Positions 1,520-19,911 of a stretch of 20,006 bases of DNA are shown here, one piece after another (the stretch's first letter is position 1; the number at the start of each line of letters is the position of its first letter). The notes under the pieces are model-generated. The model saw nothing but the letters and a program-made list of their open reading frames with translations. It was not told the DNA's origin and did no database searches. Source of the DNA: a virus; the IMG/VR virus record IMGVR_UViG_3300025128_000469, positions 1 to 20,006 of that record. One strand, given 5' to 3'. The position numbers and the translations under genes are program-made.

Positions 1520-3874
1520 TTACATTGCTGCCCTATAGTTTCCGTCTGCTTGTTGTTCGTACACTTTTCCTTCGATAGTAACACGGGATGAAGGACTAGC
1601 GTTTCCTGTCTTATCAATGACTTGATCTAGGGTCATTATGTTGCTACCCCCCATTGGGGTATTTGATTGTATCATTGCTTGGGAATCGTAGGTTCCGCCG
1701 TCGCCTATAACTCCCGGACGTTCAGCAGTGCCTGTTATAACCATGCTACTGTTGCTGTCTGGTATAGGTGTTACATTTGCGTTAGGGGCAGCGGTAGCGG
1801 TGGGCTGTTGGTTGGTGACAGAAGGAGCGGCGGAGGTGCCACCCGTATTATCTTTAGACCTAGCAATTTGACCGACAATATCGGGGGTTAGCAGAACAAC
1901 AGTATTATCCTCAGTTATGCCCACATATTTAGGACTCGTAACTGTCCCCATATTACGAATCTCTTTGAACGTGCGTTCTTTTTCATTGATGGTTACAGTT
2001 GAAGGTTCATCAACAAATAAAGGAGTGAGTTTGGCAAATTCCTCTAGTGTCGGAAGCGGGGTGCCTTGACCATCATCCTGCCTGCGCTGTCCTGTTTGAA
2101 TCAAGTATTCATTACGTGCGATACCTGCAACCTTATCTGCAGAGAGTAGTTCCCTTTCCCTGCGAGTTAGCTTGTCACCCTTACCTGCAATAGTATTAAG
2201 AATACGCAAATTATCGAATTGATCGTTTAGAGTCTGAATAACTGTATCAATCTGATCTAGTTCGGCGGAGATACTAGTGCGCCCAAAGCCCTGTAGCTTT
2301 TGCAAGTTACGCATGATGTCGCCATCTGACAAACGACCAGCACTATCTTCCGCTCGTGCTAGGTCAGCAGCAATAATGTAGCGCAGGACATCTGCCTGAT
2401 TTATCTTAGAGAGGTCATCACCAAATGCGCGTATAAAGCCAGTGGTGTCCTTTTGATTGTTGATTTCGTCAAGTCCCATAGCAGCAAAAAGCTGATCAAC
2501 TGTACCACCGGCAGCAATGGTAGCACCCACATTTCGTACAACCCACTCAGCCAGACCGCCAGAAACCGTATCTTTGCTTTCAACAATTGACCTGTACTGG
2601 GCAAGTTTCTTTCGGGCACTTTCAAATGCGTTATAGCGTTCCCTAAACTGAGTAACTTCATACCCATACAAACTTTTAAACTGTTGTTCAAATGTCCTCG
2701 AACTGAAAAAGTCTTCGTTCATCAACCCTGCATTCATCATTTCTTGATGGACTTTGTTTACGCGCAGTGGACGGAATGGAGCAATAACTGTTGCCTGCAT
2801 TACGTAGTTGTCTTTAAGGTCTGCGTCTTCCATTAGGAACTTGCCAAGAGCAAGGTTTTCTTCCCTAGACAAAACAGATTTACCGACTCCCATATCCGTA
2901 AGTGTAGCCATCTTGTTCAGAACAGTGTGTAGGTCTTCTTCGTCTGCTATTTCTGGCAGCTGAACAAAATCATAAAACCACTGTTGCGTGCTTTTTCCGT
3001 TAATTTCAGCGGCACGTTTTATCGCACCAAATACTTTTTCAGGGTTTTCTAGCGCGTTAGGATCAAACATAAACGCTGCATAGTCGCCGTTCAAACCCTT
3101 TTCTTGGAGTTTTGCAAGTGTCTCTTCTCCATAGAAACTTCCCGGCACAAGTAAAAGCTCTGAGGAAAGCAACGTTTCTCGACCAAAAATATCTTGAGCA
3201 GCTTGACTTCCCTTGAAAGCTTCGCTGTTTACCTCGAACTGTTGTCCACTACTTATATTCAAGTAATTGTCAAAGTAGTCGTAGTTGTTAAGTCCTGATA
3301 GTCCTACTTTAATTTCGCCGGGGGCACCCTGCGCTCCCTTAGACTTGTAAATCAAGTTACTTGTAGTAAGTCGATTCAATTCATCTACGATGACATCTCG
3401 TTCACCTGTATCTTGTACATGAGTTTCAAAGGCTTTCGGGTTGTTTTTTACAGTGTCTGCAAGAGCATCATACAGAATCACATCTGCTCTTCCAGTTCCT
3501 ACATGATCATTATACTCTTCCGGGACCAAAAATTCAAAGGTGCCAATCTTCTTTCTGATCATACCTTCCTGTGTGTTGTCCACACTCTGCAATAGAGGTA
3601 TAACGCCGGACAAGTCAGTGTTTATGCGCGGGCCTGCTCTTCCGAATATATCGATTCTTTCCCTATCATCAATTTGATCCTGCATATCCTTGACTGCAGT
3701 GGAAAGGATTTTAGCATTGGCTGCGCTAAAATTTTTACCCCCGGTAAGACCGGCGTTCATAATCAGCTTATTTAATTCGTCTACACTTTGCTGCTCACCC
3801 ATACGAAGTTGAGCTTCTTGTTTTATGTTTCTGGTGAATCCCGCTACAGTACCCAGAGCTAAAGCTGCCAGCAT
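1520..3874 (-). CDS. 784-residue helical protein, putative internal virion/ejection protein
   Basis: The start ATG at 3874 follows the TAG of the upstream gene by 3 nt, with a GGAGGA Shine-Dalgarno inside that gene's end. Residues 1 to about 670 are charged and helix-rich (for example ERYNAFESARKKLAQYR). Residues about 674-743 are a Pro/Thr/Ala/Asn linker (TATAAPNANVTPIPDSN). A short C-terminal segment follows, ending VTIEGKVYEQQADGNYRAAM, which looks like a small beta hairpin. There is no signal peptide and no recognised catalytic motif. The size is close to T7 gp15 (747 residues), but I see no sequence resemblance. Position between other helical virion candidates supports a packaged internal or ejection protein. 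This is inference, and a tail-associated scaffold would look similar. Confidence 0.8.
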   Translation of the reverse strand: MLAALALGTVAGFTRNIKQEAQLRMGEQQSVDELNKLIMNAGLTGGKNFSAANAKILSTAVKDMQDQIDDRERIDIFGRAGPRINTDLSGVIPLLQSVDNTQEGMIRKKIGTFEFLVPEEYNDHVGTGRADVILYDALADTVKNNPKAFETHVQDTGERDVIVDELNRLTTSNLIYKSKGAQGAPGEIKVGLSGLNNYDYFDNYLNISSGQQFEVNSEAFKGSQAAQDIFGRETLLSSELLLVPGSFYGEETLAKLQEKGLNGDYAAFMFDPNALENPEKVFGAIKRAAEINGKSTQQWFYDFVQLPEIADEEDLHTVLNKMATLTDMGVGKSVLSREENLALGKFLMEDADLKDNYVMQATVIAPFRPLRVNKVHQEMMNAGLMNEDFFSSRTFEQQFKSLYGYEVTQFRERYNAFESARKKLAQYRSIVESKDTVSGGLAEWVVRNVGATIAAGGTVDQLFAAMGLDEINNQKDTTGFIRAFGDDLSKINQADVLRYIIAADLARAEDSAGRLSDGDIMRNLQKLQGFGRTSISAELDQIDTVIQTLNDQFDNLRILNTIAGKGDKLTRRERELLSADKVAGIARNEYLIQTGQRRQDDGQGTPLPTLEEFAKLTPLFVDEPSTVTINEKERTFKEIRNMGTVTSPKYVGITEDNTVVLLTPDIVGQIARSKDNTGGTSAAPSVTNQQPTATAAPNANVTPIPDSNSSMVITGTAERPGVIGDGGTYDSQAMIQSNTPMGGSNIMTLDQVIDKTGNASPSSRVTIEGKVYEQQADGNYRAAM

Positions 3875-9122: not shown

Positions 9123-11189
9123 TTACCTTCTTCCGTACTGACCGTACTCAAGCACGGCTGCGTCAAGCGAGTAGGGGGGATTTGTATCGGTGCTTTCGAA
9201 TTGTAAGGACACAGTGAATCCTGATCCCTGTACTTGATCTTCAAATATTGATTTTAGAGTTTCTCCGCTATACACCGCCGTGTTGTCCGTACCGCCAACG
9301 CTCGTAAAAATTATATCGTCATTGTCTGACACAGCCGCTGCTAAATTAGGACTGAATGCTAGCGTGGTGGTTGCAGTAGAAGGACTGAGAGAGGCACTAC
9401 CAGAAATAGAGGGTGTACCTGTGAGTGTATACGTCGTTTCAAAGTTATCTGATGAACTGCTGCTGGTTAACACCTGAAAAGTATCTCCTGTCGCTAGTCC
9501 GCTATCTATAGACATCAAGTCTACAACCATGCTTGATACACCCGCCGAATATCCACCTCCGTTGTTTATTTTAGCACCATCAGCAAACTGAACATCCGGC
9601 TCTCCAAATATGAACACTCCTCCAGCGGAAGACGTGTTCTGTAAAATTATGCTGTCAGGCTCAATAACTCCCTCTTCACTCAAGTCGTATTTCATATTCA
9701 ACGATAGTGACAGAGTGCCTTGCGGGTCTGTAAATACAGTAGCCTTGTATATGGTCTTCCGAAGACGCGGATCACTTATCGGAAAATACGGGGTGGAAAA
9801 ACTGGCTGCTATGCTTCCGCCATCAAAACTATTTCCCGATTCCATCTGATACACATAGCCATCATTGTGTGCAAACAAGATGGTTTCGGTAGTGCCACTA
9901 TATGTTGAGTCTGCAACATACGCCTTTATTCCCGACGTTTCTGCCCAGTTTATTTCCGCTCCTTGTGAGCCTTGTACTTGTGTACCTATGATTCCTTTCG
10001 AAGTTCCTGCGCTAGCTGACCCAGTAAATCCGAATATACGATACTGGGATTTTTCCCGTATAACGGTGGATGCAAAAGATGAGTTCTGTGAAGTTAACTG
10101 AACTACCTGTTTCTGGATCGGTTTCGATACGGAGGCCAAGTTAAAGTCTTGGTTACGTTCCGTAGCAGCCACAGTCCGCAATCCATCCGGTCCCAAGAAT
10201 ATCACATCTCCGGATATCTCCTGTGCAGTATCAGAGGCAACGCACCCCACATCATCAGCGATTGGTTGCATCTGAAAATCTTCGAGGCTGTTGCCAACTA
10301 GCCGGAGAATCCTGTCTTCTCCGAAAATAATCAGTTGCTCACGGAAAACAATGAGATCAGTTACACTTGTACCTACATTGATTATACCACCACCCGAAGC
10401 TGCTGTAAAGTCATCATCTTCAAATGGAGCAGAAAAAATGACTTTTTCGCCCTTTGCTACAAATATATGGTTCTTGAAGACCGTTACATGACTAGCTCCT
10501 TCTATATCAGAGGGAGTAGATAGCTTGCTTAGTCCGGTTGCAAGAACACTGGTGAGGATCAAAGGATAGCCTATACCATCTACGATAAAGAGTTTGTCTG
10601 TGCCGTCGAAGTTATACTTGGCAAATCGCGCTCTTGATGTATTTGCACCTAAAGCTATGGTGGGCTTTGTGAAGGTCAAAGTTACATCGTTAGACACACT
10701 GACAGCAGTGTTTACCACTATGTTATTCTGATCCGTCACTGTGCTTACCGTAACAGTTCCGGAAATTCCCGTCCCTGTAACTGTGTCACCCACCTCAATA
10801 GTTCCACTGTTACCGTCTAGGACTATGCCAGTAGCACTACTTACGGCCCCATTCACCACTGCAGTGGCTGTCTCTACAGACAAATCTGTCCACGCACCTG
10901 AACCGCTACTCGCGGCAAATAACTTGGGGTTCCCCGAACTCTGGTCACGAGCTACAATCGCACTGTCTTTATAGAAAACAACCCCTAAGACATTGCCCTG
11001 ACCAGTTATGGCGTTTGTGTTAAACTTTGCAAATCCCTCTATTCTGCGATAGCCACCCTCTGTAGAAGGTTCGAAGTTATTCATAACACGGGCTGAACCG
11101 GGAGCCGCAGCACCGTGCTGTAACGGACTCAAATTAGAGATTAGCCCCCCGCGAAATTCGACGGGGTATGTTTGCCAACGATCCGGCAT
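9123..11189 (-). CDS. Tail nozzle / tail tubular protein B-like protein, 688 residues
   Basis: The N-terminus (PVEFRGGLISNLSPLQHGAA, then SARVMNNFEPSTEGGYRRIE) has the arrangement seen at the start of podovirus nozzle proteins. T7 gp12 likewise begins with a 'GG-I-s' segment, an N-G/N-F turn and an 'EG-x-x-R-R' stretch. The remainder is beta-rich, with many Ser/Thr/Gly/Val strands and no Cys-rich or catalytic region, consistent with a beta-propeller nozzle. Length is 688 against 794 for T7 gp12. It directly follows the adaptor-like gene (start ATG 11189, 2 nt after the TAG), the same adaptor-then-nozzle order as T7 genes 11 and 12. It is probably the distal tail tube and fibre platform. The assignment rests on N-terminal pattern and synteny rather than strong identity. 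Confidence 0.78.
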   Translation of the reverse strand: MPDRWQTYPVEFRGGLISNLSPLQHGAAAPGSARVMNNFEPSTEGGYRRIEGFAKFNTNAITGQGNVLGVVFYKDSAIVARDQSSGNPKLFAASSGSGAWTDLSVETATAVVNGAVSSATGIVLDGNSGTIEVGDTVTGTGISGTVTVSTVTDQNNIVVNTAVSVSNDVTLTFTKPTIALGANTSRARFAKYNFDGTDKLFIVDGIGYPLILTSVLATGLSKLSTPSDIEGASHVTVFKNHIFVAKGEKVIFSAPFEDDDFTAASGGGIINVGTSVTDLIVFREQLIIFGEDRILRLVGNSLEDFQMQPIADDVGCVASDTAQEISGDVIFLGPDGLRTVAATERNQDFNLASVSKPIQKQVVQLTSQNSSFASTVIREKSQYRIFGFTGSASAGTSKGIIGTQVQGSQGAEINWAETSGIKAYVADSTYSGTTETILFAHNDGYVYQMESGNSFDGGSIAASFSTPYFPISDPRLRKTIYKATVFTDPQGTLSLSLNMKYDLSEEGVIEPDSIILQNTSSAGGVFIFGEPDVQFADGAKINNGGGYSAGVSSMVVDLMSIDSGLATGDTFQVLTSSSSSDNFETTYTLTGTPSISGSASLSPSTATTTLAFSPNLAAAVSDNDDIIFTSVGGTDNTAVYSGETLKSIFEDQVQGSGFTVSLQFESTDTNPPYSLDAAVLEYGQYGRR

Positions 11190-11191
11190 GT

Positions 11192-11872
11192 CTAGGTTGC
11201 CCTTACATAATAGTTTTCATTTACAAGTATCTTACGCATGTTCTTCATGCCATCGTCAAACTTGCCCTTCGATATCGAAGCCATTTCCATATTGTCCCTG
11301 AACATGTAACAGTAGTACATGGCACCATCTACAATGACATGCTTGTAGGGTTCTGGTATTGTGGGAACATCGTCGTGAAGAGACAAAGCGACAGGGTGCA
11401 TGAAGTATTCGTATTCGATGGTGTATGCCTTGTCCGGCATAGGAACGATTCCGAAGTATCCATCCTGTGATCTGAATACAATTTCAGGTGTACCGCCCTT
11501 AGATGTGTCCGTCTCGTCTTCTTGATCTATGAAACGATCTATGTATTCGACGTAGGTTATCTTCTCTAGTTTTCTTGCGTTGTTTACATTTACCGAACTG
11601 TCTCTTTTCAGACGAAAGGTGTTGAAGTCTATATACTTGGCCTCATCCGCAAAAGAATAACGTGTTTCACCTGCAACGAGTGTAATTTCATCTGAATTAT
11701 GATTGTAGGGCCAGTAGAGATAGTACTGGTTAATATCGTGTATGGCAGAATTTACAGAATCTTTTACAGTTCCGTAGAATCCTTTTGCCGCAGAAAAATT
11801 CGATGTTGTCAGTTCGGCTTCGTTAAGACGCCTGTTGACGTTGTTTACAATATCTAGGTAATCATATGCCAT
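11192..11872 (-). CDS. Head-tail adaptor / tail tubular protein A-like protein, 226 residues
   Basis: The protein begins MAYDYLDIVNNVNRRLNEAE, a helical start typical of phage adaptor proteins, followed by a helix (VKDSVNSAIHDINQYYLYWP). A beta-rich middle includes ITLVAGETRYSFADEAKYID, and FGIVPMPDKAYTIEYEYFMH follows. The last 50 residues are helical (GKFDDGMKNMRKIL). The pattern N-terminal helix, 'W-P-Y', 'T-Y-F/S-a', then 'P-x-P' with 'Y-x-I-x-Y-x-Y' is that of the gp11/tail tubular A and related adaptor families. T7 gp11 is 196 residues. The start overlaps the upstream gene's stop as TGATG, implying translational coupling. It should form the ring between portal and nozzle. Confidence 0.8.
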   Translation of the reverse strand: MAYDYLDIVNNVNRRLNEAELTTSNFSAAKGFYGTVKDSVNSAIHDINQYYLYWPYNHNSDEITLVAGETRYSFADEAKYIDFNTFRLKRDSSVNVNNARKLEKITYVEYIDRFIDQEDETDTSKGGTPEIVFRSQDGYFGIVPMPDKAYTIEYEYFMHPVALSLHDDVPTIPEPYKHVIVDGAMYYCYMFRDNMEMASISKGKFDDGMKNMRKILVNENYYVRAT

Positions 11873-12267
11873 CAGCTACGCTCCCTCACTCGCAAATTTA
11901 TCATTCGCTTTGTAACAATCGCAGCACTGGTCTTTGCAGAGGTACTGGTAGTTATCTCGCATATAAGAATGTAATCCTTATTAGCTATTCCTCCCTGAAG
12001 AACTATAGATGCTGTAGTGTTAGTAACAGAAGGAATACTGTTAACAATCAATCCATTCGTAGGATTAGCTACGCTATCCGTAGCATCTAGATTAGATGAG
12101 GATGATAGAGCTACGGATTCGTCGCCCTTGCTTTTTGCTCCTAGATCATTCGGAAGAATATACCTCCACTCTACGGAAGCAATGGTGAGCGTATCCAGAT
12201 AACGGGACCAGTCTACCGTATAATCCAGAAGTTCATCAGGGTCTTTGTCGGGCCAACGAAGTGACAT
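11872..12267 (-). CDS. Phage fibre-tail adaptor protein, 131 residues
   Basis: The N-terminus MSLRWPDKDPDELLDYTVDW is the hallmark of small phage 'fibre-tail adaptor' proteins (K-x-P-x-E-x-L-D-Y-x-x-D-W, then a beta sandwich). The rest is beta-rich: SVEWRYILPNDLG, ASIVLQGGIANKDYILICEI, ending in a basic strand KRMINLRVRERS. In that family the protein is thought to link side fibres to the tail tube, which fits its position between fibre genes and the adaptor. ATG at 12267 comes one base after the upstream TAA, and the 3' end overlaps the next start as TGATG. An extra Ser/Asn-rich loop (about residues 48-72) makes it somewhat longer than the typical members I recall. Confidence 0.8.
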   Translation of the reverse strand: MSLRWPDKDPDELLDYTVDWSRYLDTLTIASVEWRYILPNDLGAKSKGDESVALSSSSNLDATDSVANPTNGLIVNSIPSVTNTTASIVLQGGIANKDYILICEITTSTSAKTSAAIVTKRMINLRVRERS

Positions 12268-12268
12268 T

Positions 12269-12709
12269 TTACGCTACCTTTACTACTCTTTGAATGACTT
12301 GTGGCACAGAAACCATTCGTGGTTTTTCTCTTGAAACAGAAACGACTCTCTGCTTTTCTTGAGTTATATATACAACGTGCTTCTTGGATTCTTCTATTGA
12401 TACGTGTCTGCGAAGTTCACGAGAAATGGAAACAATTCTCTTGGTGGGATGAGCATCTACATTTGTCACTCGAATAGCATCTCTGGGTATGGATACTACT
12501 CGTGTCGTCTCAGGGGAAACGAATGAAACACGAGGCACCTCTCGACCTACGTATATTATATTCTCTAGGGGTCTATGTACGTACACCTGTCTTTGAGGCT
12601 CTTGCATAACATAGACAACTTGATCTCTTGAATAGAGAGCCGGATCAAGTCGCACTGACGGATCAGTGTTAGAGAAGGTTTCTACAGAAAATGATGATAC
12701 ACCAAACAT
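12269..12709 (-). CDS. Decapeptide-repeat protein of unknown function, 146 residues
   Basis: After a short N-terminal segment (MFGVSSFSVETFSNTDPSVR), residues 31-146 are a nearly perfect 10-residue repeat: VVYVMQEPQR, QVYVHRPLEN, IIYVGREVPR, VSFVSPETTR, VVSIPRDAIR, and so on, ending VVSVSREKPR, MVSVPQVIQR, VVKVA. There are eleven full units plus a half unit, with one extra residue inserted near position 91. Each unit is a short V-x-x-V strand followed by a charged turn ending mostly in Arg, so a beta-solenoid or a long series of beta arches is likely. ATG at 12709 overlaps the upstream stop (TGATG); a GTG one codon earlier is possible. It sits between the fibre chaperone and the fibre-tail adaptor, so a tail or fibre accessory role is the best guess. 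I do not recognise a named family. Confidence 0.85.
   Translation of the reverse strand: MFGVSSFSVETFSNTDPSVRLDPALYSRDQVVYVMQEPQRQVYVHRPLENIIYVGREVPRVSFVSPETTRVVSIPRDAIRVTNVDAHPTKRIVSISRELRRHVSIEESKKHVVYITQEKQRVVSVSREKPRMVSVPQVIQRVVKVA
12272..12619 (-). repeat. Coding decapeptide repeats (30-bp period)
   Basis: Eleven full 30-bp units and a half unit encode V-V-x-V-x-R-E-x-x-R-type decapeptides (residues 31-146 of the host gene). The plus strand shows recurrent variants of acgact/acaact preceded by tctctt/ttcttg. Units have diverged at DNA level but hold their register at protein level, apart from a one-codon insertion. Confidence 0.85.
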
Positions 12710-12963
12710 CACGGTTTAGTTGGCCAGCTAATGTTGTTCAAATCAGATTGCTTCGTTACATCGCGTAGTTGCTGCCTGTAAGTGCGCCAAGCTGCTGTGT
12801 TGCCGCCAGCATCTTCCAGTTTGTAGATTTCAATGTCGGCCTCTTCTAACAAAGGCCAACGGCTCTGACGTATATCATCTAGCTTCTCTGCGTCTGTAGG
12901 CACATCAGCAGTATCACCCTCTGCCGCGTCAACCAGAACGCCATCTAAGTATCGTTTGCTCAT
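12709..12963 (-). CDS. Tail fibre assembly chaperone-like protein (Phage_tail_APC type), 84 residues
   Basis: The C-terminal half carries the signature of phage tail assembly chaperones: DDIRQSRWPLLEEADIEIYK, then AAWRTYRQQLRDVTKQ, ending in NNISWPTKP. In that family (R-x-x-R-L/P-L-L-x-x-x-D near the start, W-x-x-Y-R-Q-x-L-R-D and a terminal W-P-x-x-P) the small protein helps fold or trimerise the adjacent fibre. Its ATG overlaps the stop of the 989-residue fibre gene (ATGA, 4 nt), so it is translated right after its likely client. It is not known to be part of the virion in related systems. Confidence 0.82.
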   Translation of the reverse strand: MSKRYLDGVLVDAAEGDTADVPTDAEKLDDIRQSRWPLLEEADIEIYKLEDAGGNTAAWRTYRQQLRDVTKQSDLNNISWPTKP

Positions 12964-15929
12964 GCTGGTAATCCGTATAAACTAAAAGTGCCACCATTTA
13001 TTTGACTACCAAAATCATGCTCATAAAGACGAATAAAGTTGACGGCTGTTGCGCTTTTATAGACGCCGCCTCCTACTCTTACTGTTTGATAATAGTCTTG
13101 CCCATCATCTGTGCCGCCACTGCGATCTTGAACAATGTGTGTCATGGATTCTATTTGAAATGTTTTGTGAAAAGCAGTTGAACGTAGGTTAGAAAAACGA
13201 ATTACAACGTTGAATTGTGCAGTAGAAGAAGGGCTTGTTTCGTATGTGCCGTCTCCGGTTAGCTGCCATTGTGCGCCATTACTTGTGTTTATAAACCTAG
13301 AAGGAGTATCTGTAGAGGTAGCTGTGTGATCTAAAGCACGACCCTCCGTCACTACACGACTTACATAAATAGTGCTTGTGTCTTGAGCGTTGCTTGTGCC
13401 TAATCGCATCCTCAGTCTAGTCAATGCCGAAACTGTTGCTCCTGATATGACTAACAGATAATCGTTGTAAGTATCAGTAATCAGGCTCGACCCAAAATCA
13501 ACGCTGGACACTCCACTGCTGACCGTCGTCGTGTTCAGAAGAACTGCGTTGCCGTTGGTCAGGGCTGCTGTGCCTGTCGCGTCAGGCAGAGTGATGGTGC
13601 GATTTTCTGCTGGAGTGGAGGGTGTAATGGTCACATGATAATCTGTGCCACCCCACGATCTAAACTGAATTGTACTATCGTCTTGAAGAAAATATAAACT
13701 TTTATTAGCGGCAGCAAATGCGTTTGTTAGGGTGCCGTTGACCATATTGCCAAGATAAAGCCAACCATCTTCTGTGCCGTCAGTTACATCTGCTGTAACA
13801 CTGGTTATTTGATTATAGACTACTTGCTCATCAGCATCATTGTCTGCATAAAATCTTATTTTACCTTCTGTGGCAAAATCGGAGGCATCGCTATGGTCGT
13901 CTGATTTTAAATCAAGAGTAGGGCCATTGTCTGCCGTTGACGTAATTGTAACAACATCGCCGGAAACACTCATGCCATCGGCTGTCGTCTCCAGCTTCTT
14001 GACGTTGTCGTGATAAAGTTCGACTGCGCCACCCTCAAAAGCGTGGAGTAGTTTTTCTGAGTTTCCTCCATTGTTGACCTTGAGGGTATTTGTCCTCATT
14101 AAAACCACGCCCGTACCAGCGTCGTGTATTATGCTGTTAGAGCCGTTGTGGTAAATTTGTAGGTCATTTCCAGCACCGAATACTGCCTTCGCATTGTCAG
14201 CGAACTCTAGTGCGTCGTCGGATTTGTCCCAGACAACATTGTAGTTATCGCCTGTGAAGGTAACGTCGCCATCGTGTGTCGCACCGTCATCTGTAACTGT
14301 ACCAGTTACATCAATGCCACCGCTGGTTGTTTCCAGTTTCTTGGCGTTGTCGTGATAAATCTGAACAGCGCCGTTCTCTGTGGCGTCTAAGAATGTTTCT
14401 GTATCACCAGCGTTTCTCAGCTTAATGACACTACCAGTTAGACGAAGGCCACCAGTTCCCGCATCGCTAACGTAACTATGACTGCCGTCATGGTAAATCT
14501 GTAAGTCATCACCTGCACCGAATACTGCCTTCGCATTGTCAGCAAACTCTAGTGCGTCAGCCGACTTGTCCCAGACGACATTGTAGTTGTCACCCGTAAA
14601 GGTAACGTCACCAGTAAATGCGCCGCCAGCCAGTGGCATAGCTGCTATATCTGACAAAACCTCAGAGGCAGAACGGCCTTCAATATCAGTGCCGTTTACT
14701 CGTAAAAAGTCATCGTCTGCAACGCCGGACGTAAATTTAGGAACATTGGTGTTTGATATACCTGTGTCCAACACCGCCGCAGTACCAAGCCCCAGACTTG
14801 TTCTGGCAGTAGCACCGGACTCTGCAACAAAGTTGCTGCCATCACCCACAATAAAGTTGCCGTCTGTTACAGCGAGGCCAGCTACATCTTGAAGTTGCGC
14901 GTCCAGTCTGGCGTTGGCGACTGTGCCAGATAATTGGGAAGCATTTATCGTTTTGTTTGTAAGCGTATCAGTGGAGCTAGCTGTAATGGCCCCTATGTCC
15001 GAAAGAACCTCAGATGTTGCTCTGCTCTCTAGGCCGTTTGCAGTGAACCTCGCATATTCATCGTCAGCAACAGATGCGCTGTCAATCTTTACAGCATTGG
15101 TGTTTGAGATGCCAAACGTCAGTGATGCCTGTGCGCCTATGTCAGACAACACCTCGCTGGTTGACCGACTCTCCAGACCGTTTGCTGTAAATCGTGCGTA
15201 CTCGTCATCTGCGACATCACCGCTGTCAATTTTTACGGCATTGGTATTGGATATGCCAAATGTCAGACTAGCCTGACCACCAATGTCAGACAGGACTTCA
15301 GAAGCAGAACGTCCTTCGATGGCTGTGCCATCTATTCTGAGGAAATCGTTGTCTACAGCACCGCTGGTAAAAGTAGCTACGTTACCACTTGAAATACCAG
15401 CAGAGGGAATGTCAGATGTTAGTGCGACTGTACCTGCGCTTGACGGCAGGGTAACAGTCACGTCTGCCGTAGATGCTGGACCTATCAATGTAACTGCATT
15501 GGTGCCGTTGTCTGTATCTTCCTTAAAAAGTATAGAGCCAGCAGCCGAAGAAGAACCAGACAGTATAGGAGCAGATAGCTGGGGTGTACCATCATTTGTC
15601 GTTACGATGTTACCGTTTGCATCAGTAAAGACAGCCTTCTCTGCGGGCTGAGTAACAAATATTTCTCGTGTACCTGCTGCCCAGTTTACGGCTGTATCGG
15701 AATTACTCGACTGAAGTATAGTTGTGCGGGCTAGGGTTGTACCGCTGGCTGTGTAGGTACCGATACCTATTTCGAAATTAGTACCATCTGTACAACAGTA
15801 ATATGTTGTGTTCCCGTTGCCGATAACAGAAAATGACTCAAACCCGGTAGCTGCACCTAAGAGCGTATAGGTACCAGTTCCCTGAGTGTTAGTCGTTTCT
15901 TTTACACGATCAGCTACCTTGAGGGCCAT
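12960..15929 (-). CDS. Tail fibre protein, 989 residues, repeat-built
   Basis: The N-terminal anchor (MALKVADRVKETTNTQGTGT to about residue 100, with NGNTTYYCCTDGTNFEIGIG and REIFVTQPAEKAVFTD) is one I recognise from many marine and enteric phage fibres. The shaft is modular. A unit of about 48 residues containing GISNTNAVKIDS and ARFTANGLESR-T-SEVLSDIG occurs four times (178-224, 225-272, 273-316, 390-430). A 104-residue unit with DNYNVVWDKS and AGDDLQIYHDGS occurs twice (440-543, 554-657). A module shared with the other fibre spans 668-747. Residues about 798-989 are non-repetitive and probably form the receptor-binding tip. The start ATG at 15929 has GGA upstream. The chaperone gene follows immediately. 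Fibre length and receptor range could vary through repeat recombination, but that is inference. Confidence 0.92.
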   Translation of the reverse strand: MALKVADRVKETTNTQGTGTYTLLGAATGFESFSVIGNGNTTYYCCTDGTNFEIGIGTYTASGTTLARTTILQSSNSDTAVNWAAGTREIFVTQPAEKAVFTDANGNIVTTNDGTPQLSAPILSGSSSAAGSILFKEDTDNGTNAVTLIGPASTADVTVTLPSSAGTVALTSDIPSAGISSGNVATFTSGAVDNDFLRIDGTAIEGRSASEVLSDIGGQASLTFGISNTNAVKIDSGDVADDEYARFTANGLESRSTSEVLSDIGAQASLTFGISNTNAVKIDSASVADDEYARFTANGLESRATSEVLSDIGAITASSTDTLTNKTINASQLSGTVANARLDAQLQDVAGLAVTDGNFIVGDGSNFVAESGATARTSLGLGTAAVLDTGISNTNVPKFTSGVADDDFLRVNGTDIEGRSASEVLSDIAAMPLAGGAFTGDVTFTGDNYNVVWDKSADALEFADNAKAVFGAGDDLQIYHDGSHSYVSDAGTGGLRLTGSVIKLRNAGDTETFLDATENGAVQIYHDNAKKLETTSGGIDVTGTVTDDGATHDGDVTFTGDNYNVVWDKSDDALEFADNAKAVFGAGNDLQIYHNGSNSIIHDAGTGVVLMRTNTLKVNNGGNSEKLLHAFEGGAVELYHDNVKKLETTADGMSVSGDVVTITSTADNGPTLDLKSDDHSDASDFATEGKIRFYADNDADEQVVYNQITSVTADVTDGTEDGWLYLGNMVNGTLTNAFAAANKSLYFLQDDSTIQFRSWGGTDYHVTITPSTPAENRTITLPDATGTAALTNGNAVLLNTTTVSSGVSSVDFGSSLITDTYNDYLLVISGATVSALTRLRMRLGTSNAQDTSTIYVSRVVTEGRALDHTATSTDTPSRFINTSNGAQWQLTGDGTYETSPSSTAQFNVVIRFSNLRSTAFHKTFQIESMTHIVQDRSGGTDDGQDYYQTVRVGGGVYKSATAVNFIRLYEHDFGSQINGGTFSLYGLPA
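13689..13928 (-). repeat. Fibre module copy 3 (first fibre, residues 668-747)
   Basis: This is related to the modules at 8133-8366 and 7203-7439 in the other fibre gene. Key residues are GPTLDLKSDDHSDASDF, then GKIRFYADNDADEQVVYNQI and VTDGTEDGWLYLG. It is more diverged than the two copies within the second fibre, mainly in the first 20 residues. Confidence 0.7.
13959..14270 (-). repeat. Fibre shaft repeat B, copy 2 (residues 554-657)
   Basis: Second copy of a 104-residue unit with a 342-bp period. It contains GDVTFTGDNYNVVWDKSDDA, GNDLQIYHNGSNS and AVELYHDNVKKLETT. The middle (residues about 604-632) differs from copy 1, while both ends are nearly identical even at DNA level. Confidence 0.88.
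14301..14612 (-). repeat. Fibre shaft repeat B, copy 1 (residues 440-543)
   Basis: First copy of the 104-residue unit, containing GDVTFTGDNYNVVWDKSADA, GDDLQIYHDGSHS and AVQIYHDNAKKLETT. The 'DLQIYHDGS' strand-turn motif is widespread in phage fibre shafts. Confidence 0.88.
14640..15398 (-). repeat. Fibre shaft repeat A, four copies of a ~144-bp coding unit
   Basis: Copies lie at about 15258-15398, 15114-15257, 14982-15113 and 14640-14762. Core residues are GISNTNAVKIDS, VADDEYARFTANGLESR and TSEVLSDIG. Copies 2 and 3 are nearly identical. Copies 1 and 4 resemble each other more (DFLR-x-x-GT-x-IEGRSASEVLSDI) and flank the pair. The third and fourth copies are separated by about 73 non-repeat residues. 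Confidence 0.9.
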
Positions 15930-15945
15930 AGATTATTCCGTAGTT

Positions 15946-16287
15946 CTAGAATACATTTGGATCGTAGGTTTCATGCACAGATATAGTTACCAGTAGAGTA
16001 TTTCCGGTGGTAGCTGTGGCGTACACAATGTCTCCTGCGTCTAGGTACAGGGGAGAATTAAAGTTGCTCAGAGCCTCAGAAGAATTAGAGGCTATAGCAC
16101 GAGCCTCAAATATGTTGTACGTCGAGGAGCCATCGTTTCTCTGAATAAGAACATTCCTAGCAGAAGAATCTGTGTTAGATATAATAATGGCCTGAACCAC
16201 AGAAGAGTGATTAGCAGGCACAGTGTATATCGTAGTCTGGGCGGTATTCGTCAGGTCAACCGACTTAGTGAGGGATTTGTTCGCCAT
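15946..16287 (-). CDS. Hypothetical 113-residue beta-rich protein upstream of the tail fibre
   Basis: The ATG at 16287 shares its A with the upstream TGA (TGATG); a TTG one codon earlier is possible but unnecessary. The protein is beta-rich, with alternating strands (TTIYTVPANHSSVVQAIIIS, ARNVLIQRNDG, LYLDAGDIVYATATTGNTLL) and an acidic/aromatic end HETYDPNVF. It has no membrane segment. Composition and the 'T-x-Y-T-V-P-A-x-x-x-S-x-V-x-x-I' pattern are like small phage virion beta-sandwich or decoration proteins found beside tail fibre genes. A structural role is likely from context; the exact role is unknown. Confidence 0.8.
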   Translation of the reverse strand: MANKSLTKSVDLTNTAQTTIYTVPANHSSVVQAIIISNTDSSARNVLIQRNDGSSTYNIFEARAIASNSSEALSNFNSPLYLDAGDIVYATATTGNTLLVTISVHETYDPNVF

Positions 16288-16517
16288 CAATCTTCAGTTT
16301 CATTATCCGTCTCTGCCACGATAGAATTCAGGGCATTCATTTTGTCGTTTGCGTTAACCCACTTCTCCAACGCGCTATCCATCTCTTCCAGCAGACCCGG
16401 ATGTTCACCCACGCCAACAGGATGTTTAGAGTAAAGAGAGAATACAAATTTTGCATCTGCCATCTCCGCAGTGTATTTATGTTTTAAAGCATCTATTGCC
16501 AACTGATATACCTTCAT
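16287..16517 (-). CDS. Hypothetical 76-residue helical protein, first gene after the internal promoter
   Basis: ATG at 16517 is preceded by a strong Shine-Dalgarno (GGGGAGAG, 7 nt upstream) and by a clear promoter. The product MKVYQLAIDALKHKYTAEMA and onward is helical and charged, with a conserved-looking turn SKHPVGVGEHPGLLEEMDSA and an acidic C-terminus TDNETED. Similar small proteins (an 'x-VGIGEHP-x-x-LEEMD' motif) occur in marine phage genomes as far as I recall, without known function. It is the promoter-proximal gene of the fibre/tail operon and is coupled to the next gene. Confidence 0.8.
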   Translation of the reverse strand: MKVYQLAIDALKHKYTAEMADAKFVFSLYSKHPVGVGEHPGLLEEMDSALEKWVNANDKMNALNSIVAETDNETED

Positions 16518-18230: not shown

Positions 18231-18410
18231 CTAGTTGCCGACCTTCTTTTTGGCCCGTATGTGAGCTTGCGTAAATGACATTCCCGCCAACATATCTTTT
18301 TTCATAGCAGCCATATGCTTTTTGCTATGGTGCTTAGAATGTTTTTTCATAGTTTCTTTTTGACGTTTTGTCAGGTCTTTTTTCTTGGGTTTTTTAGGAA
18401 CGCGTTTCAT
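18231..18410 (-). CDS. Small His/Lys-rich protein, 59 residues
   Basis: ATG at 18410 is chosen over 18446 because GGGAGGAGAG lies just upstream, inside the preceding gene, giving a 17-nt overlap. The product MKRVPKKPKKKDLTKRQKET is very basic. It continues with MKKHSKHHSKKHMAAMKKDM and LAGMSFTQAHIRAKKKVGN. The 'L-T-K-R-Q-x-x-x-x-K-x-H-S-x-H-H-x-x-x-H-M' pattern is one I recall from many marine phage genomes near lysis or structural genes, with no known role. The His cluster (five His in residues 23-32) could bind metal. It may interact with nucleic acid; this is speculative. Confidence 0.82.
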   Translation of the reverse strand: MKRVPKKPKKKDLTKRQKETMKKHSKHHSKKHMAAMKKDMLAGMSFTQAHIRAKKKVGN

Positions 18411-18615
18411 TTCTGTTCTCTCCTCCCATCCAGATTCCAAATGCACCTGTCATGGCACCCATCACAACGCTTACAAATGCGGACTGTGCTGCTGTCGGGG
18501 CATCCAAGTTCATAAACCACTCTGCACAACGCCAACTCATCAGAGTCATTATGAGCATCATAAACCGGGGTAACAACTTCCACTTGGATATGCGTTCAAA
18601 TGTTACGTCAGCCAC
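18394..18615 (-). CDS. Two-TM holin-like small membrane protein, 73 residues
   Basis: The frame extends upstream to 18699, but GTG at 18615, two bases after the holin stop and with GGAAAG upstream, gives a protein beginning MADVTFERISKWKLLPRFMM. Transmembrane helices lie at about residues 16-36 (PRFMMLIMTLMSWRCAEWFM) and 43-63 (AQSAFVSVVMGAMTGAFGIW), with a short polar C-terminus GGENRNETRS. Size, topology and position directly after the holin suggest a class II holin, antiholin or holin partner. I recall similar two-TM proteins ('K-W-x-x-x-P-R' then 'A-A-Q-x-A-F-V-S') in marine phages. Role inferred from context. Confidence 0.8.
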   Translation of the reverse strand: MADVTFERISKWKLLPRFMMLIMTLMSWRCAEWFMNLDAPTAAQSAFVSVVMGAMTGAFGIWMGGENRNETRS

Positions 18616-18617
18616 GC

Positions 18618-19001
18618 CTATTTCTTTCCGAAGAACTTTGTCGCCGAGCGGACTCCAAAGCTTGCAGCAACAATAACGCCCAAGCTGTACTGGTACCATT
18701 CAGGCATTTGCTCCAGTTGTTGAAATCCATGAGATACGACATCTTCCATTCCGGGTATGAATGCTAGGATTAACGGAACCGAAAACAAAATAACCAGCCA
18801 CTCGTCTTTCCACGAGTTCTGACTGCCCTTGATCGCTTCCAAGTCCCAGTCTATTTCACCTGTTGCTTTCTTTTCCATGATGACCGCTTCGGCTTTTGCC
18901 TTTGCGACCTTTGCGCCTGTTTCGGCTTTTGTCTTTTCGACCTTGCCCTCAAGCCATGTGCTTGCAAGACTAGAGATCGGGCCAATCAATGCAGTTAGCA
19001 T
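18618..19001 (-). CDS. Holin, gene-transfer-agent/3TM type (GTA_holin_3TM-like), 127 residues
   Basis: The protein permeabilises the inner membrane to release the endolysin. ATG at 19001 (MLTALIGPISSLASTWLEGK) is preferred over a GTG two codons earlier because GAGG is spaced 5 nt from it. The N-terminus is a hydrophobic or amphipathic segment. A charged, Lys/Glu/Ala-rich helix follows (residues 18-50), then NSWKDEWLVILFSVPLILAF (62-81) and MPEWYQYSLGVIVAASFGVR (99-118), ending KFFGKK. The 'S-W-K-D-E-x-L-x-L-L-F-S-I/V-P-L-I-L-x-F-I-P-G' and 'W-Y-x-Y-x-L-G-V-I-V-A-x-S-F-G-V-R' blocks are characteristic of this holin family. It overlaps the previous gene by 7 nt. Confidence 0.88.
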   Translation of the reverse strand: MLTALIGPISSLASTWLEGKVEKTKAETGAKVAKAKAEAVIMEKKATGEIDWDLEAIKGSQNSWKDEWLVILFSVPLILAFIPGMEDVVSHGFQQLEQMPEWYQYSLGVIVAASFGVRSATKFFGKK

Positions 19002-19279
19002 TTCCACCTCTTCCGTGCTTGGCGAAGACGACTATTCGGATTCTTCGCTGCCTTCGGGAACTTCTTCATCTGTCCGGCAGAACGCGCACAGTACGACTTG
19101 CGACGTTTAGCTGCCTTGCTTCCGGGTTTCACCTTGCCAGTAACCGCAGTCTTCAGTTTGCTTCCGGGGTTTTTCTTGCGGTAGGCTTTGACCCCAGCCT
19201 CAGTCATACCCGCACCCTTTTTTGTAGGGCGAAAGTTCTTCTTGTTACGGGCAGGCATGTTGTCAGGCTTTTTTGCCAC
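18995..19279 (-). CDS. Small basic protein, DUF6321-like, 94 residues
   Basis: The GTG start at 19279 has a near-perfect Shine-Dalgarno (GGAGG, 7 nt upstream) located inside the preceding gene (17-nt overlap). A later ATG (codon 8) lacks one. The product is strongly basic. The central block GMTEAGVKAYRKKNPGSKLK, then TGKVKPGSKAAKRRKSYCAR, and the end RLRQARKRWKC with Cys64 and Cys94, match a family I know from marine phages (I believe DUF6321). No function is established. High charge suggests nucleic-acid or membrane binding. The 3' end overlaps the holin start, so the two are translationally linked. Confidence 0.87.
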   Translation of the reverse strand: MAKKPDNMPARNKKNFRPTKKGAGMTEAGVKAYRKKNPGSKLKTAVTGKVKPGSKAAKRRKSYCARSAGQMKKFPKAAKNPNSRLRQARKRWKC

Positions 19280-19508
19280 TGGCCTTCCTCCTTTTGCCCG
19301 AAGCCGTAACTGACCAATTCACTCTTCGTGACCCAGTCTTCTTGGCAGCTTCTTTCTTAGTTATGCGCTTGGCCACTTTGGCTGGTCTACATGCGGGGTA
19401 GGGCCGTTTCTTCTTTTCTGATCCGGAGCGACCACATTTCTTGCCGGTCTTTACATCCCGCCAGTCTTCCTTGAACCATTTAGTTAAGCCACCCTTTGGT
19501 TTAGCCAT
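19263..19508 (-). CDS. Small basic Cys-containing protein of unknown function, 81 residues
   Basis: The product MAKPKGGLTKWFKEDWRDVK continues with TGKKCGRSGSEKKKRPYPAC and RPAKVAKRITKKEAAKK. The layout 'G-L-x-K-W-F-K-E-x-W-x-D-V', 'K-C-G-R' and 'Y-P-x-C-R-P' is recurrent in small proteins of marine phages and large viruses. Cys25 and Cys40 are its only cysteines. The C-terminus is Lys/Arg/Ser-rich. ATG at 19508 follows the upstream TAA by 2 nt with a weak purine-rich site. The function of this family is not known to me. Confidence 0.85.
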   Translation of the reverse strand: MAKPKGGLTKWFKEDWRDVKTGKKCGRSGSEKKKRPYPACRPAKVAKRITKKEAAKKTGSRRVNWSVTASGKRRKASGKKA

Positions 19509-19510
19509 AG

Positions 19511-19714
19511 TTATTTCTTTTTCTTAGCCTTGCCGCCCACTGCCATTTTCTTTGCTGCAACCTTGCCGCCCGTCTTTTTACCGACTCTTTTAATTCCGGC
19601 TTCAGGTATCACTCTAAATGTACCGTCAGGAAGTTTTATTTTTCCGCTGTTAACGATTTTACCATTCCTTACTGTAAGAATAGTACGTTCGCCTGTTTCT
19701 TTTTTTAGTGCCAT
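19511..19714 (-). CDS. Small basic hypothetical protein, 67 residues
   Basis: I start at ATG 19714 (MALKKETGERTILTVRNGKI), which has GGAG 7 nt upstream; an extension to 19774 runs back into the upstream gene in another frame and looks spurious. The N-terminal 40 residues look like a small beta unit (ILTVRNGKIVNSGKIKLPDG, then TFRVIPEAGIKR). The C-terminal 25 are Lys/Gly/Ala-rich (KTGGKVAAKKMAVGGKAKKK) and probably disordered. Function is unknown. It belongs to the cluster of small basic proteins that follows the right-hand promoter. Confidence 0.77.
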   Translation of the reverse strand: MALKKETGERTILTVRNGKIVNSGKIKLPDGTFRVIPEAGIKRVGKKTGGKVAAKKMAVGGKAKKKK

Positions 19715-19728
19715 TTTATGTCTCCATT

Positions 19729-19911
19729 TTAGGCGTACGTCCCGCCACGCTTCTTGTACGTCCTGACCAGCCACGCATTTGCATAGGCTGATGGGTACAC
19801 GTCAAACTTTTTCTTCGCCTCTGCTTTTACACGGGCGTAGAGTGCTTTGTTTTTGGGGGTTGCGCCCTTCGACTTCTTTTTCTTGGGCTTGGGTGGTGCT
19901 TTACGTGCCAT
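19729..19911 (-). CDS. Small Lys-rich protein, possibly DUF5872-like, 60 residues
   Basis: This is the first gene after the right-hand promoter. The N-terminus is Pro/Lys-rich (ARKAPPKPKKKKSKGATPKN). The C-terminal 40 residues form a compact-looking unit: LYARVKAEAKKKFDVYPSAY, then ANAWLVRTYKKRGGTYA. The 'Y-x-x-V-K-x-x-A-K-x-K-F-x-x-x-P-S-A-Y-A-x-x-W-L-V-x-x-Y-K-x-R-G-G' pattern is widespread in marine phages and giant viruses. I associate it with a domain of unknown function, possibly DUF5872, but am not certain of the name. Nineteen of 60 residues are Lys or Arg. ATG at 19911 has a G-rich site (GGGGAA) about 8 nt upstream. Confidence 0.85.
   Translation of the reverse strand: MARKAPPKPKKKKSKGATPKNKALYARVKAEAKKKFDVYPSAYANAWLVRTYKKRGGTYA

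Follow-up and report, generated by a model that had tools for sequence, protein, structure and literature searches.

A decapeptide-repeat protein beside the fibre-tail adaptor in a viral genome fragment: a probable beadless relative of GP4-type chain-fibre ropes

The DNA analysed here (hereafter the window) is a fragment of a viral genome, 20,006 nucleotides long, and the protein encoded directly upstream of its fibre-tail adaptor is probably a beadless member or derivative of the rope family that belongs to chain fibres of the phage GP4 type. Since this protein has no bead repeats and its genomic neighbourhood has no bead gene, it was classed as a beadless derivative and not as a full rope. 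A rope of this family has three parts in one presumably elongated polypeptide, beginning with a short N-terminal cap, followed by 20-residue repeats on which gp80 beads would be threaded, roughly one per repeat, and ending with decapeptides that would tie it to the ring of gp77 encircling the tail of the podovirus. For the window protein we infer a place in the virion, with decapeptides binding gp77, and a present role next to the base of the fibre, where it would be a bare thread or a clamp. The features on which the argument depends are the following.

9123..11189, minus strand: large tail protein, probably the nozzle (named from gene order and position); phrog_5107, and weakly phrog_3287 (virion protein)
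11192..11872, minus strand: tail adaptor of the SU10 adaptor family; PF24175, E 1.1e-20; phrog_10775 tail protein
11872..12267, minus strand: fibre-tail adaptor, homologue of phage GP4 gp77; PF23148, E 1.6e-14, 54.6 bits (cut-off 27)
12269..12709, minus strand: rope-family protein, ORF of 146 aa; homologues start with M-F-G at ATG
12272..12619, minus strand: decapeptide array, residues 31-146, about 11.5 units with consensus R-V-V-x-V-x-x-E-x-x
12620..12709, minus strand: N-terminal cap, residues 1-30 (MFGVSSFSVETFSN... DPALYSRDQ), from the alignment of upstream genes at 80 loci
12709..12963, minus strand: fibre assembly chaperone, upstream of the repeat gene; PF16778, E 3.8e-10
12960..15929, minus strand: tail fibre of 989 aa; phrog_8745 and phrog_3484 (tail fibre); its start adjoins the empty bead site
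15930..15945, no strand: empty bead site, 16 bp separating the 114-aa gene from the fibre gene, where relatives have the gp80 bead gene (gene order compared with L105, L106, L107, L108 and L113)
15946..16290, minus strand: gene of 114 aa marking the bead site; it flanks gp80 in several relatives

The reading frame may be extended to an alternative GTG at 12712 (ORF 12269-12712, minus strand, 147 aa), but the relatives begin with M-F-G, so that the ATG at 12709 is the likely start; this start overlaps the stop of the chaperone gene. The array consists of units QVVYVMQEPQ, RQVYVHRPLE, NIIYVGREVP, RVSFVSPETT, RVVSIPRDAI, RVTNVDAHPTK, RIVSISRELR, RHVSIEESKK, HVVYITQEKQ, RVVSVSREKP, RMVSVPQVIQ and RVVKVA, where RVTNVDAHPTK is the single unit of 11 residues. 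At lag 10 the protein is identical to itself at 30 residues against a mean of 10.2 in shuffled sequences, and none of 20,000 shuffles reached 30 identities at this or any other lag. The description of residues 31-146 in the first-pass annotation, about 11.5 ten-residue units with one slip, was thereby borne out. At the DNA level identity is 41% at lag 30 versus roughly 18-29% at neighbouring lags; with units diverged to this extent the array is old and not a product of recent slippage. Other contigs carry the same array with 1-13 non-synonymous differences.

Two sides of the repeat gene are occupied by fibre-related genes. Directly downstream lies the gp77 homologue, whose PF23148 score exceeds the curated cut-off, and this location supports the earlier suggestion that the protein could glue, or tether, the fibre to the tail. 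The fibre gene upstream (12960-15929) proved to be mosaic among near-identical phages: compared with L001 51-2204 its C-terminal 441 residues are 97% identical and its middle just 37-68%, which, next to a conserved tail, suggests exchange of fibre modules. Farther away, at 18231-19911, there is a row of small Lys/Arg-rich proteins of 60-94 aa, partly conserved among relatives and perhaps representing putative DNA-binding virion proteins.

The slot occupied by the repeat gene was compared in relatives by scanning viral contigs with gp77, which gave 80 loci, and inspecting the gene that ends just before gp77. Nearly all loci with a readable upstream gene encode there a protein with a cap, repeats and a decapeptide tail. 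The cap follows the pattern M-F/L-G-F-x-x-F-S-x-x-P-F-S and is succeeded by 6-30 copies of a 20-residue repeat and then by C-terminal decapeptides of the window type. In the closest group and in gp80-associated ropes the middle part repeats every 20 residues exactly, and in others every 20-23 residues. The window protein shares the MFG..FS..PFS cap (MFGVSSFSVETFSN compared with MFGFSAFSETPFSA and others), which the alignment of upstream genes from the 80 loci shows to be conserved in ropes having 20-residue repeats, and the segment FDPALYSRD of its cap also precedes the decapeptides of long ropes. At the other end its Arg-type ten-residue repeats align with the tails of bead-bearing ropes, and the C-terminus common to it and its closest bead-bearing relatives ('PRMVSVPQAAQRLAKVA') reaches 68% in the best segment (L003). 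Absence of the repeat from close homologues, which the first-pass annotation named as grounds for refutation, can be dismissed, because nearly all homologues in the slot end in the decapeptide, with about 3-13 units.

Middle repeats are missing from three clades: that of the window, that of L045/L046/L049 and that of L023-L025. The first two have long decapeptide arrays, of about 11.5 and about 12 units, while bead-bearing relatives mostly have 4-7 and some long ropes end with merely 3-6. Separate mini-genes (37-80 aa) made of Arg-type decapeptides stand directly upstream of gp77 in some HMO-2011-type phages and IMG/VR contigs (L088 8885-8998; L181 9281-9463; L188, L189, L193, L201). Additional small repeat proteins ('GLGFYDT...') were seen just upstream of the rope in L123 (2495-3502) and L121 (8342-8548); their units are 20-residue-like or of 11 residues, and they are possibly second ropes.

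The prototype of this arrangement is fibre I of GP4. GP4 reportedly has five fibres I, each composed of five gp80 dimers joined by an elongated rope protein, and these are said to be anchored on a 15-fold ring of gp77. A passage of PMC10925440 mentions a 15:12 mismatch "like in the podophage GP4". The structure with the title "Fiber I and fiber-tail-adaptor of phage GP4" (PDB 8JOU) includes 10 chains of gp80 (beads, PF23140) and 3 chains of gp77 (PF23148), the latter belonging to the family encoded next to the window protein. Both proteins of record L293 are identical to those in 8JOU, and the gene order there is gp80, an ORF of 325 aa, an ORF of 568 aa and gp77. The 325-aa ORF (2206-3180) contains 11 chained units of about 20 residues and, towards its C-terminus, a short Arg-type decapeptide tail; it has the same three-part build and the same location between gp80 and gp77 as the wider family. 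No PDB chain has its sequence, though its neighbours are present in 8JOU/8JOV, so the GP4 rope seems to have no assigned sequence in the PDB, and this ORF is a candidate because of where it lies, how its repeats are arranged and how many there are. Compared with it the window protein differs in having about 11.5 decapeptides instead of about 2 and in lacking 20-residue repeats, and the bead site of its phage is devoid of gp80.

If the middle repeats serve gp80, beads and repeats should be met together. PF23140 was searched in the contigs behind the gp77 loci and gene order was then compared. All 14 contigs scored as gp80-positive encode 6-24 twenty-residue units, whereas those in which the bead site was sequenced but contained no gp80 (the window, G014, circular G007 and G022/G023) all have 0 units. 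In all five gp80-bearing contigs that were compared for gene order, the bead gene is located upstream of the large fibre gene; the two are direct neighbours in four contigs, and in L113 a second bead gene lies between them. In the window and in G014 the sequenced bead site shows the 114-aa gene followed by the fibre gene with a gap of 16 bp and no bead. The 20-kb record of the window, a fragment of a genome, gave no match to PF23140, and its repeat protein has no 20-residue bead repeats (0 units). Contig G007 (53.8 kb) encodes neither bead, and its rope consists of decapeptides alone. Its ends overlap by about 98 bases, and the bead site is complete once they are joined; since the terminal bases differ, a test for exact matches found no overlap, and circularity is our own reading of the sequence ends. 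G022 and G023 have a different bead at the bead site and a rope of 107 aa with 0 units. In a tree of gp77 plus adaptor, where branch support is moderate in places, the unit-less members fall into three clades, two of them nested inside bead-bearing groups, so joint loss of beads and 20-residue units probably occurred two or more times. Both bead genes are found side by side in one phage (L043, with a rope of 842 aa, and L113 1563-2392); in its rope many 20-residue units of the gp80 type are accompanied by a single weak unit of the second kind, and a domain of about 350 residues is inserted.

An independent sample was obtained by scanning viral contigs with the gp80 profile, which yielded 80 loci and 47 non-redundant cases of the next ORF. 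The best autocorrelation of this ORF was at 20 or 40 residues in 42 of the 47 cases versus 8% of 286 control ORFs, and for its last 60 residues the best lag was 10 or 20 in 35 of the 47 versus 6% of controls. The tail itself is of two kinds: Arg-type in 9 gp80 loci that bear gp77 (6 recognised by pattern and 3 by eye) and Trp-type (NTWTPVSxDS) in 53 gp80 loci without gp77. Tail chemistry that tracks gp77 fits the role of a tail anchor, and shared ancestry contributes to this association. A scan of the genome collection with GP4 gp80 returned one doubtful fragment.

Among characterised phages the same combination occurs in several groups. Burkholderia phage BcepMigl encodes, not far from its gp77 homologue, a counterpart of the GP4 "fiber I protein" gp80 (PF23140), and in JC1, BcepIL02, Itty13 and POI1126 a three-part gene lies between gp80 and gp77. 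The repeat protein of Lessievirus in this position (BcepIL02 gp56, BcepMigl gp57, JC1 gp54; phrog_19041) has the N-terminal cap and an Arg-type tail ('ENRALRVPRPQR') like that of the window protein, and in JC1 and BcepIL02 about 10-11 twenty-residue repeats. Unlike the window protein, these ropes have beads and bead repeats and just 2-4 decapeptides. The BcepIL02 and BcepMigl equivalents are annotated as virion-associated. Mass spectrometry of JC1 detected the homologues of the bead and of the adaptor but not the rope ORF gp54 (PMC9144972), which is the main caution for the whole family.

The gp77 of the window is also distantly matched in Roseobacter phages CRP-207, CRP-345 and CRP-603, which are HMO-2011-type phages (PMC9038755). 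Their ropes (CRP-207 gp50, CRP-345 gp55 with gp54, CRP-603 gp57) lie upstream of gp77 and have repeats of 20-23 residues; in CRP-345 the decapeptides form a separate gene of 37 aa. They differ in the bead family, since these ropes come after a 145-aa protein of phrog_644. The AlphaFold model of the latter (pLDDT 72) had GP4 gp80 as the best by E-value of 350,542 PDB chains, with E 0.32 and TM about 0.4, and VIA-align superposed 109 residues of this pair at Z 6.2 and scored some other phage proteins higher; hhalign of both bead families gave nothing significant (E 0.062, probability 0.9%). The relationship of the phrog_644 bead to gp80 is therefore suggestive only. Mycobacteriophage Faith1 encodes in succession a gp77-like protein (gp22), a gp80-like protein (gp23) and a 762-aa "minor tail protein" (gp24), which ends in Ala/Val repeats and in Arg-type decapeptides like those of the window protein. 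It differs in host and family (Vilmaviridae), in gene order and in a long glycine-rich N-terminus. In our record of this phage (L092 3593-6628) the triad is annotated as "minor tail protein" / "head protein". Among the papers searched, none describes a phage "rope protein".

Searches with the window protein itself gave no Pfam match, a best PHROG E-value of 0.027 and no significant sequence match in the PDB, where CRP-603 gp57, BcepMigl gp57, the Lessievirus rope profile and the GP4 rope had no relative either. BLAST matches in the phage genomes KLEP7 and PJNS034 lie outside tail operons and were discarded as chance, as was a match in L004, also outside tail operons.

The first-pass annotation had preferred a self-standing beta-solenoid or stacked beta-arch spike or fibre, and the strict Arg-ended alternation with a period of ten residues is indeed compatible with stacked strands. 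This idea now looks quite improbable: the same repeat occurs in just 3-6 units at the end of long ropes or as a mini-gene of 37-61 aa, too short for such a fold, and the monomer modelled by AlphaFold together with 33 relatives has no confident fold (pLDDT 30, pTM 0.15), so that no fold can be claimed for the protein. The model is uninformative on a beta-solenoid and does not contradict it, since folding may depend on contact with partner proteins. Still less credible is a cationic repeat binding a polyanion such as LPS or nucleic acid, also proposed at that stage from the alternation of hydrophobic and cationic residues. Nothing in the data spoke for it; tails in the same position in gp77-less phages are rich in Trp, Thr, Ser and Asp and are not cationic, and within the decapeptide unit Glu is nearly as regular as Arg. 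The further idea of a ruler may fit the family, in which the copy number of the 20-residue repeat ranges between 6 and 30, but does not apply specifically to the window member's decapeptides.

Somewhat unlikely is the possibility that the decapeptides bind another partner, be it the 989-aa fibre, the chaperone of that fibre or the edge of the capsid, and that the protein links or positions the fibre. The repeat gene does lie between the chaperone gene and gp77, and in marine relatives the fibre gene adjoins the bead site. This linkage to the fibre is not conserved, however: in phages of the Lessievirus type the rope gene stands between gp80 and gp77, neither a fibre nor a chaperone gene intervenes, and the type of tail tracks gp77. 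Most probably, we infer, the partner is gp77, and the array at 12272..12619 would then be the tail-anchor module. It is unlikely that the chain fibre was lost and the decapeptide ORF is a decaying leftover under weak constraint and with no present role. Such a remnant would account for gp80 and its repeats missing together, and also for the pN/pS of the window repeats, which is 0.66 (versus L011) against about 0.02-0.03 in the adaptor and a value that is lower in gp77 too, all from small counts. Judged from these ratios, constraint on the repeats is weaker than on their neighbours, yet the decapeptide pattern is kept and the frame is open in five contigs, with small difference counts. Moreover, the array is longer than in bead-bearing kin, and a long one is likewise present in another beadless clade that is unrelated to this one, which fits enlargement rather than decay.

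Taken together, and with about even confidence, the data may be read as a large, unnamed family of two-period ropes that builds bead-on-string fibres in podoviruses and in one or more groups of siphoviruses. How many gp80 beads a fibre has, and hence its length, would be set by the number of 20-residue repeats (6 to about 30), the chemistry of the ten-residue tail (Arg or Trp) would match the tail adaptor, the GP4 rope would be the 325-aa ORF beside gp80, and the window phage would be a natural beadless version. If this is true, one class of phage fibres encodes its length in a repeat that can be counted in any genome, GP4 gains a likely rope gene, and many "hypothetical" repeat proteins of marine phages acquire a function. 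The window phage would in that case represent a natural deletion experiment, in which bead repeats and the bead gene are gone and the tail-anchor repeats are enlarged.
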